Source: Oscillospiraceae bacterium
GTDB taxonomy: Bacteria; Bacillota; Clostridia; Oscillospirales; Acutalibacteraceae
NCBI GenBank assembly: GCA_015065505.1
Contig: SVQE01000021.1
Location: 1 to 38,285, forward strand
Direction: 5' to 3'
DNA: 38,285 nt
In this document: positions 8,111-16,144 of the stretch, in pieces
How positions within the stretch are numbered: the stretch's first letter is position 1
Layout of the letters: every line of letters starts with the position of its first letter
The notes under the pieces: generated by a model
Database searches by the model: none
Seen by the model: only the letters and a program-made list of their open reading frames with translations
What the model was told of the DNA's origin: nothing
Position numbers and translations under genes: made by a program

Positions 8111-8281
8111 GTCGAGCGTTTGCGCTCGACAATGAATTGCGTGAACGCATGAATTGCATAAATGCATGAATTGACCTACGGTCATGAATTGCCTGTCGGC
8201 ATTATTATTCAGCAATTCAATTCATGGAGCAAAGCGAGAATTCATGGCGCAGCCTATTCATGATGCATCGCATCAATTCAT
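8111..8281. repeat. Hairpin array B: heptamer ATGAATT alternating with short palindromes
   Basis: It starts with an 8-bp hairpin (8111-8130, arms GTCGAGCG/CGCTCGAC). Four ATGAATT copies follow at 8132, 8149, 8166 and 8184. They alternate with four different short palindromes: GCGT-GA-ACGC, GCAT-AA-ATGC, GACC-TAC-GGTC and GCC-TGTC-GGC. The right half holds the inverse heptamer AATTCAT at 8219, 8239 and 8275 with the variant TATTCAT at 8255, and the palindromes GGC-GCA-GCC and GATGC-ATC-GCATC. No coding potential. It fills the gap between the metallopeptidase and the SHOCT protein. Confidence 0.85.
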
Positions 8282-15906: not shown

Positions 15907-16119
15907 GTAGGGGCAATTCACAAATCGCCCGTCAACAATCAAAATTATTTTTGATTATATCGCTTTTTGCTGTGCAAAAAATATCGCTCACAAATATCTT
16001 TGTGAATATCGCATTGCGCATCGCGCAATATATCGCCGAACGAGAATGGTTCGTTTCATTCATCTGTTATTGAAACGGATATGTTGTCGCAACGGCGCGT
16101 CCGGGTGGTCGCGCCCTAC
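15907..16119. repeat. GTAGGG...CCCTAC element, copy 2, with embedded hairpin array A
   Basis: 213 bp bounded by GTAGGG (15907) and CCCTAC (ending 16119), with the shared core GTTCGTTTCATTCATCTGTT at 16049-16068 and a terminal GGCGCG...CGCGCC hairpin. Inserted between the left hairpin and the core (15937-16036) is a four-unit array. Each unit is a perfect hairpin with a 7-8 bp stem and a 3-4 nt loop, followed by an exact ATATCGC at 15957, 15981, 16006 and 16030. The stems are AATCAAAA, TTTTTGC, TCACAAA and ATTGCGC with their complements. The element lies upstream of glnA. Confidence 0.9.
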
Positions 16120-16144
16120 ACATTCGAAGCTCCGCCCCAATGTA

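Follow-up and report, generated by a model that had tools for sequence, protein, structure and literature searches.

Arrays of mini-hairpins and short linkers in gut Clostridia as a candidate mobile element partnered with four-helix-bundle proteins

INTRODUCTION

MITEs and BIME-type palindromic repeats are short, multicopy, foldable and intergenic, and some of their copies are gene-less. REPtrons, as an excerpt of one account describes them (PMC6006769), consist of hairpins dispersed between genes and a TnpA-REP gene flanked by its own REP family, with several such pairs per genome. Homing in DGRs requires a hairpin with a free stem sequence and a GRNA loop, and Avd is a DGR accessory component (excerpt of PMC3240598). 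According to part of a DGR survey, PF05635 resembles Avd, and members of the PF05635 family are termed functionally uncharacterised (PMC10053308).

We analysed a stretch of 38,285 nt from an Oscillospiraceae genome (the window), which holds an array of four hairpins joined by a constant ATATCGC linker. From sequence, we describe such arrays, their multiplicity, their linkage to a gene for a four-helix-bundle protein (PF05635/TIGR02436), the agreement of linker with protein clade, the polarity of the loops and the absence of the window array from orthologous sites. In the open-licence PMC papers searched, neither hairpin arrays with PF05635 genes nor clade-specific linkers were found. The match between linker and protein clade points to a partnership of protein and repeat that is unrecognised in that literature.

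REPtrons (RAYT-REP systems) are nearest in design, likewise having dispersed intergenic hairpins, a gene with its own repeats and several gene-repeat pairs per genome. However, the partner here is a four-helix-bundle protein and there an HUH nuclease, the invariant segment joins sequence-free hairpins as a linker, where REP hairpins have a GT[AG]G foot, and the linker class follows the protein clade. In place of the GT[AG]G foot of REP/RAYT repeats, the elements have ATATCGC, ATATCGA, ATTCA and others as constant parts. DGRs share the need for a hairpin as structure, not as sequence, but they have one hairpin with the loop consensus GRNA where we see arrays with GNA and GNNA loops, and neither a reverse transcriptase nor a template repeat was seen on the elements as read, nor could a nuclease or recombinase be linked to them. 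Neither of two array-linked proteins scanned matched the Avd model NF033474, the only match among three scanned being a PRK12275-branch protein at 43.8 bits against a cut-off of 80, and we treat the likeness to Avd and DGRs as a lead by analogy. The 23S rRNA intervening-sequence protein belongs to the same family (PF05635/TIGR02436), but the scanned loci (nine loci and the window, with no rRNA by Rfam) lie outside 23S rRNA. Like MITEs and BIMEs, the array elements are short, multicopy, foldable, intergenic and partly gene-less; unlike them, they have no defined terminal inverted repeat with target duplication that we could find, and their palindrome sequence is not conserved between species.

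RESULTS

The ATATCGC array of the window

The first-pass annotation placed four ATATCGC copies at 15957, 15981, 16006 and 16030, exactly where they lie, each behind a perfect stem of 7-8 bp with a loop of 3-4 nt, and the sequence bears out all four stems:

15932..15936, + strand: TCAAC, left of hairpin 1
15937..15956, + strand: hairpin 1, AATCAAAA-TTAT-TTTTGATT, stem 8 bp, loop 4 nt, 100% complementary
15957..15963, + strand: linker 1, ATATCGC, exact match
15964..15980, + strand: hairpin 2, TTTTTGC-TGT-GCAAAAA, stem 7 bp, loop 3 nt
15981..15987, + strand: linker 2, ATATCGC, exact match
15988..16005, + strand: hairpin 3, TCACAAA-TATC-TTTGTGA, stem 7 bp, loop 4 nt
16006..16012, + strand: linker 3, ATATCGC, exact match
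16013..16029, + strand: hairpin 4, ATTGCGC-ATC-GCGCAAT, stem 7 bp, loop 3 nt; the slot most conserved among the genome's other copies
16030..16036, + strand: linker 4, ATATCGC, exact match; right end of the array by comparison of copies

Because TTAAC replaces TCAAC in four of the five full copies most like the window array (by eye), the left end of the element probably lies near 15932..15936. ATATCGC matches the window 12 times, against 5.24 expected, and none of 100 shuffles reached 12. When we searched for runs of at least two perfect hairpins (stem of at least 4 bp) with identical 5-, 6- or 7-mers between them, 200 dinucleotide shuffles of the window gave none and the real window two, namely the ATATCGC array and a run at 8133-8189. 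Folding z-scores of the array were -3.60 on the + strand and -3.41 on the - strand. An Rfam scan of the window found no family at gathering score and no rRNA.

Copies in the source genome

The source assembly (2.31 Mb, 95 contigs, 89% complete) contains 24 ATATCGC-to-ATATCGC unit pairs, compared with none for the reversed control pattern. One of these, on contig C81, is not a hairpin by eye, and the rest form nine loci, of which two are incomplete. In five full copies the stems agree slot by slot (TTTTTGC, TGTTTGC, TTTGAAC and ATTGCGC) apart from small changes. In the window copy the stems of slots 1-3 are unlike those of the five, with pairing kept; the C91 copy differs in slots 2-3, which are still paired, and has ATTTTTGC in slot 1 and a shortened ATTGC in slot 4. 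Thus, some copies keep their stems and more divergent ones only the structure. The claim of four unrelated stems therefore holds within the window array but does not extend to the five other full copies, which share stems slot by slot; stem conservation in sequence, named beforehand as a result that would speak against the annotation's reading, is seen among those five and not between species. Similar copies have common edges, (T)TAAC on the left and ATATCGCT on the right, and no clear target duplication by eye; an exact empty site could not be defined either.

In the assembly, at its 89% completeness, no gene belongs to the ATATCGC protein clade, the closest match reaching 51% identity. It does hold a further family of arrays, with 44 ATTCATG unit pairs against none for the reversed control, and the second run of the window belongs to an element of this type:

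8111..8280, + strand: ATTCA-type element, the second hairpin array of the window; an outer hairpin, then hairpins joined by TGAAT linkers, the core, and hairpins joined by ATTCA linkers

It ends 28 nt upstream of the start codon (ATG, 8309) of an ORF with a SHOCT domain. Contig C19 of the same genome has ATTCA-type four-helix-bundle genes preceded by elements with a similar core and arms, and ATTCA copies elsewhere in the genome precede other ORFs.

The site between capA and glnA

Among 60 genomes of the genus, 56 had a capA match; in the best 30 loci, which were read, capA and glnA are adjacent in 25 (the window and 24 relatives). All 24 readable relatives lack the array, and ATATCGC, between the two genes; the gap is 14-220 nt long in them, compared with 268 in the window. 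A lone ATATCG-like hexamer occurs at the site in five of these relatives, the array in none. Because of this absence from the orthologous site, the array is most simply an insertion of the window lineage, and with nine loci in the source genome it has the properties of a mobile repeat in general. The nearness of glnA, mentioned in the first-pass annotation, is incidental, given that none of the 24 readable relatives sharing this gene order has an array there, and a role in glnA regulation was rejected on this ground. As a separate observation, 13 of the 24 relatives (L342-L370, by eye) have a terminator-like hairpin with GAACGCC between capA and glnA, which is missing in the source genome where the array lies; the glnA-leader hairpin had no Rfam match in three scanned.

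Arrays in other genomes

Named genomes were scanned for three successive linkers, which gave at least 120 stretches, many of them hairpin arrays in gut Clostridia, with chance matches (coding repeats without hairpins in unrelated phyla) included in that count. The array carriers among the listed stretches are Oscillospiraceae, Ruminococcaceae, Christensenella and unnamed Clostridia, mostly from animal-gut assemblies; some genomes occur both with and without a name (for example, L317 and L147), so that locus counts are not species counts. Five relatives had 35, 25, 19, 17 and 11 matches to the linker pattern, not all of them hairpins, against 3 for the control over 61 genomes. No further arrays in any genome was the outcome that the first-pass annotation had set against its own reading when it proposed such a search, and this did not occur.

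A perfect stem of at least 4 bp anchored at the ends is present in 52.6% of 498 spacers, compared with 0.6% of random stretches from the same loci, and in 228 of 396 distinct spacers. Stem sequence is nearly free, with 176 distinct stems among 296 units and pairing kept, and the observation that structure persists while sequence changes holds far beyond the window array, in other copies and other genomes. The fuller elements are divergent, (GCGATAT-hairpin)n-core-(hairpin-ATATCGC)n, many loci consisting of a core with one of two divergent arrays on either side. Among 45 distinct divergent elements, 31 have an outermost hairpin with an arm that finds a 6-nt complement in the core (2.4% after core shuffling), so an alternative closing stem is common.

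By eye, elements at six loci (L303, L304, L307, L264, L290 and L273) start right after long terminator-like hairpins, and one of these sits behind the 3' end of a tRNA; a target preference is possible.

A four-helix-bundle gene beside the arrays

A profile of the four-helix-bundle gene (its starting set included some wrong-frame ORFs, and it was later rebuilt from its own matches) matched in 9 of the at least 120 listed stretches, and the gene abuts the array in all nine. The array-linked protein of L131 exceeds the curated cut-offs of both PF05635 and TIGR02436 (80.6 bits against 33.8 and 89.8 against 24), and a solved relative is 2rld, with five chains. In many cases the right array immediately precedes, in sense direction, the ribosome-binding site and start codon of this gene.

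To measure distance we used 80 stretches around PF05635 matches, a large part but not all of the list, and a strict detector for at least two consecutive perfect hairpins between identical 4- to 9-mers. It found 22 arrays within 200 bp of the gene (0.675 per kb), four at 200-500 bp, five at 500-1000 bp, three at 1-2 kb and two at 2-4.5 kb (0.008 per kb). Only 17 of the 80 loci have a strict array within 500 bp, and many of the remaining ones have arrays with varied linkers by eye. Applied to control loci, the detector found none at 29 capA loci, none at five Y1 transposase loci of relatives and none at five of the source genome, and it marked 1 of 29 pattern loci, that one being a true array. 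No strict array occurred in the 'YKDL.VWQKS' branch or at the 29 PF05635 loci with the best scores from the rest of the phylum, and the partnership therefore belongs to part of the PF05635 family.

Three kinds of arrangement were seen in passing. In L131:1150-2000, L172:360-950 and L213:1150-1900 a piece of the left array recurs behind the gene, so that direct repeats enclose core, array and gene; a circular or rolling intermediate might leave such a pattern. L141:3400-4342 holds four tandem copies of the array and the start of the four-helix-bundle gene, only the last of which reaches a full gene. At L174, L175, L249, L276, L283 and L288, four-helix-bundle genes without hairpin arrays lie next to inverted tandem copies of 7- to 8-mers, perhaps the same tag principle without hairpins.

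Agreement between linker and protein clade

On a tree of 79 proteins, of which 23 carried a linker label and 56 rows none, the 8 linker classes (three of them single rows) require 7 changes, which is the minimum, and 0 of 200 shuffles were as low; labels had been merged by hand, TTTCA with ATTTCAT, and AATCA and AATTCAT with ATTCA. Two genomes combine several classes, with a separate protein for each: G039 has ATATCGC, AATATAACT and ATTTACC, and G056 has ATATCGA and ATTCA. Host descent alone is thus not the cause of the agreement.

Eight of the nine ATATCGC rows came from loci fetched by the ATATCGC pattern, and a protein-based search was run to reduce this bias. Homologues of one ATATCGC-clade protein were sought in 295 genomes of the order, and 30 of the listed matches were taken as loci, five of them known from before (L312, L317, L319, L324 and L338). 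Linkers were assigned by motif in 25 and by reading in four, with L319, the G039 locus, read separately. All eight homologues at 68-75% identity (six new loci, two known from earlier ones) carry six to eight linkers of the ATATCGC type no further than 300 bp from the gene. Five at 56-59% identity, four of these loci being new, have ATATCGA; ATATCAC was found with one homologue at 64% and one at 56%, and ATTTCA-, ATTTAGC- and similar linkers with those of lower identity. By eye, arrays were present in all 30 loci; the strict detector found them in 17, in one case (L321) not beside the gene. The linker tag is thus likely to predict the clade of the neighbouring protein and, judged from sequence, to name its likely ligand.

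Loop polarity

Of 376 loops of 3-4 nt read on the linker strand, 189 are GNA or GNNA and one is of the reverse type. For ATATCGC, 103 of 226 loops are GN(N)A, one is TN(N)C and 122 are neither; for ten other linkers the corresponding counts are 86, 0 and 64 among 150, where linker sense was set by hand from likeness to ATATCGC after some loops had been viewed, and a wrong choice would turn n to 0 into 0 to n; unanimity of loop type within each linker stands, and a shared sense across linkers less so. In ATATCG-like arrays, GNA accounts for 78 of 167 triloops (TNC 0) and GNNA for 63 of 127 tetraloops (TNNC 1). GNYA and GNRA occur 33 and 30 times, showing no GNRA bias, and UNCG tetraloops are absent from these arrays. 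Among the ATATCGC copies of the source genome, few loops are GNA or GNNA and most are of other kinds. Sorted by distance from the gene, the loops have no polarity, which appears only when they are sorted by linker; we think that the mixing of left and right arrays at every distance accounts for this.

An excerpt of one study describes GNA and GNNA loops on G-C pairs as extraordinarily stable DNA mini-hairpins (PMC4686876). With about half of the loops of this mini-hairpin type, hardly any reversed and no GNRA bias, a folded single DNA strand is suggested. Single mismatches inside stems were G.T in 13 cases and A.C in 6 (p 0.17, not significant), a lean that would also suit RNA.

DISCUSSION

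We consider it fairly probable that the window array is a gene-less copy of an element dispersed in gut Clostridia, with linkers recognised by a four-helix-bundle protein and a single DNA strand as the folded form. A full element would comprise a left array (linker'-hairpin)n, a short core and a right array (hairpin-linker)n, followed in some copies by the gene at once. That the protein recognises the short linkers is, from the sequence comparisons, very likely. The protein-binding scaffold put forward in the first-pass annotation is accordingly the best-fitting of its suggestions in that linker type follows the clade of the gene carried by some copies, with binding itself deduced from that agreement. 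The hairpins would serve as spacers or scaffolds selected for folding and not for sequence, leaving stems to drift freely while paired. The folded form would be the DNA strand that reads hairpin-linker, and a single-stranded DNA of this kind seems somewhat more plausible than not. We think that an Avd-like ring of the protein could gather the linkers of the single-stranded copy and that borrowed enzymes, of the host or others, could carry out its copying or insertion. On this model the window copy was either mobilised in trans or is a remnant; mobility of gene-less copies in trans is likely, and a cDNA route as in DGRs, suggested by analogy, is unlikely.

The principal alternative is that the arrays are structured RNA leaders, with the protein bound to the unpaired linkers in its own mRNA, either for autoregulation or in an RNA-protein particle, and the dispersed copies as by-products. 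The frequent position of the right array just before the ribosome-binding site and start codon, in sense, agrees with this, as does the non-significant excess of G.T over A.C mismatches, and Avd, a distant homologue, works with an RNA. However, GNYA is about as frequent as GNRA, triloops outnumber tetraloops (167 to 127) and UNCG is missing, a usage from which RNA hairpins usually differ. In addition, many copies have no gene, and Rfam has no match on the arrays, a scan of nine further loci (six with arrays) returning one tRNA, no rRNA and nothing else. We regard RNA leaders as rather unlikely. A purely mutational origin, in which template switching between arms creates palindromes in a repeat without present function, would account for stems that are near perfect yet differ between copies, and for slot 2 of the C9 copy, where the loop is the reverse complement of that in sister copies (AAA to TTT). 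But the 189-to-1 loop polarity and the agreement of linker with protein need selection or recognition, and template switching, proposed by the first-pass annotation for the origin of the units, is a possible source of new stems that fails on these two points when taken alone; as the whole explanation it is improbable.

Movement of the arrays as REP/REPIN-like palindromes by Y1 (RAYT) transposases is about equally improbable. REP families are likewise dispersed hairpins, each with its own gene (excerpt of PMC6006769), and five PF01797 matches are present in the source genome, of which four lie in frames of ~250 aa. Yet G039, 98% complete and with 17 pattern matches, has no PF01797, G056 with 19 matches has only a weak fragment, the five PF01797 loci of the source genome have no strict array, and the linkers are not GT[AG]G. 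RAYT/Y1 is disfavoured as the mover, since Y1 genes do not track the arrays. We give next to no credence to a CRISPR-like adaptive array with self-complementary spacers, a comparison also drawn by the first-pass annotation: the alternation of constant and variable parts is a likeness of shape only, and the comparison fails on a constant part of 5-9 nt (7 nt here), mostly 3-4 units, divergent paired arrays, hairpins as spacers and PF05635 as the linked gene.

Returning to the element with protein-recognised linkers, a broader proposal is possible but more doubtful: Avd-like four-helix-bundle proteins would drive a whole class of mobile elements, in which clade-specific tags of 5-9 nt separate sequence-free DNA mini-hairpins on one strand and which would move via single-stranded DNA or cDNA with borrowed enzymes. 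If the mobile-element reading is true, it gives part of the 23S intervening-sequence protein family its role and connects that family with the need for a hairpin in DGR retrohoming; the resemblance to Avd and the DGR target hairpins would offer a common hypothesis for both. PF05635/TIGR02436 is widespread in bacteria, and the array linkers make the question of its ligand directly testable. Hairpins conserved in shape and free in sequence, with DNA-type loops nearly all on one strand, provide a case from nature of apparent selection on the folding of single-stranded DNA.

Other repeats accompany the arrays in the source genome. The flanks of the window array (15907-15930 and 16094-16121) contain repeat pieces, GTAGGGGC... 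and ...GCGCCCTAC, like repeats at other loci of the genome, which may also have a GTAG REP family. Three arrays (L006, L015 and L009) have a palindrome of the type GTATACAGGGGTC-GACCCCTGTATAC next to them or close by; repeats of different families cluster.
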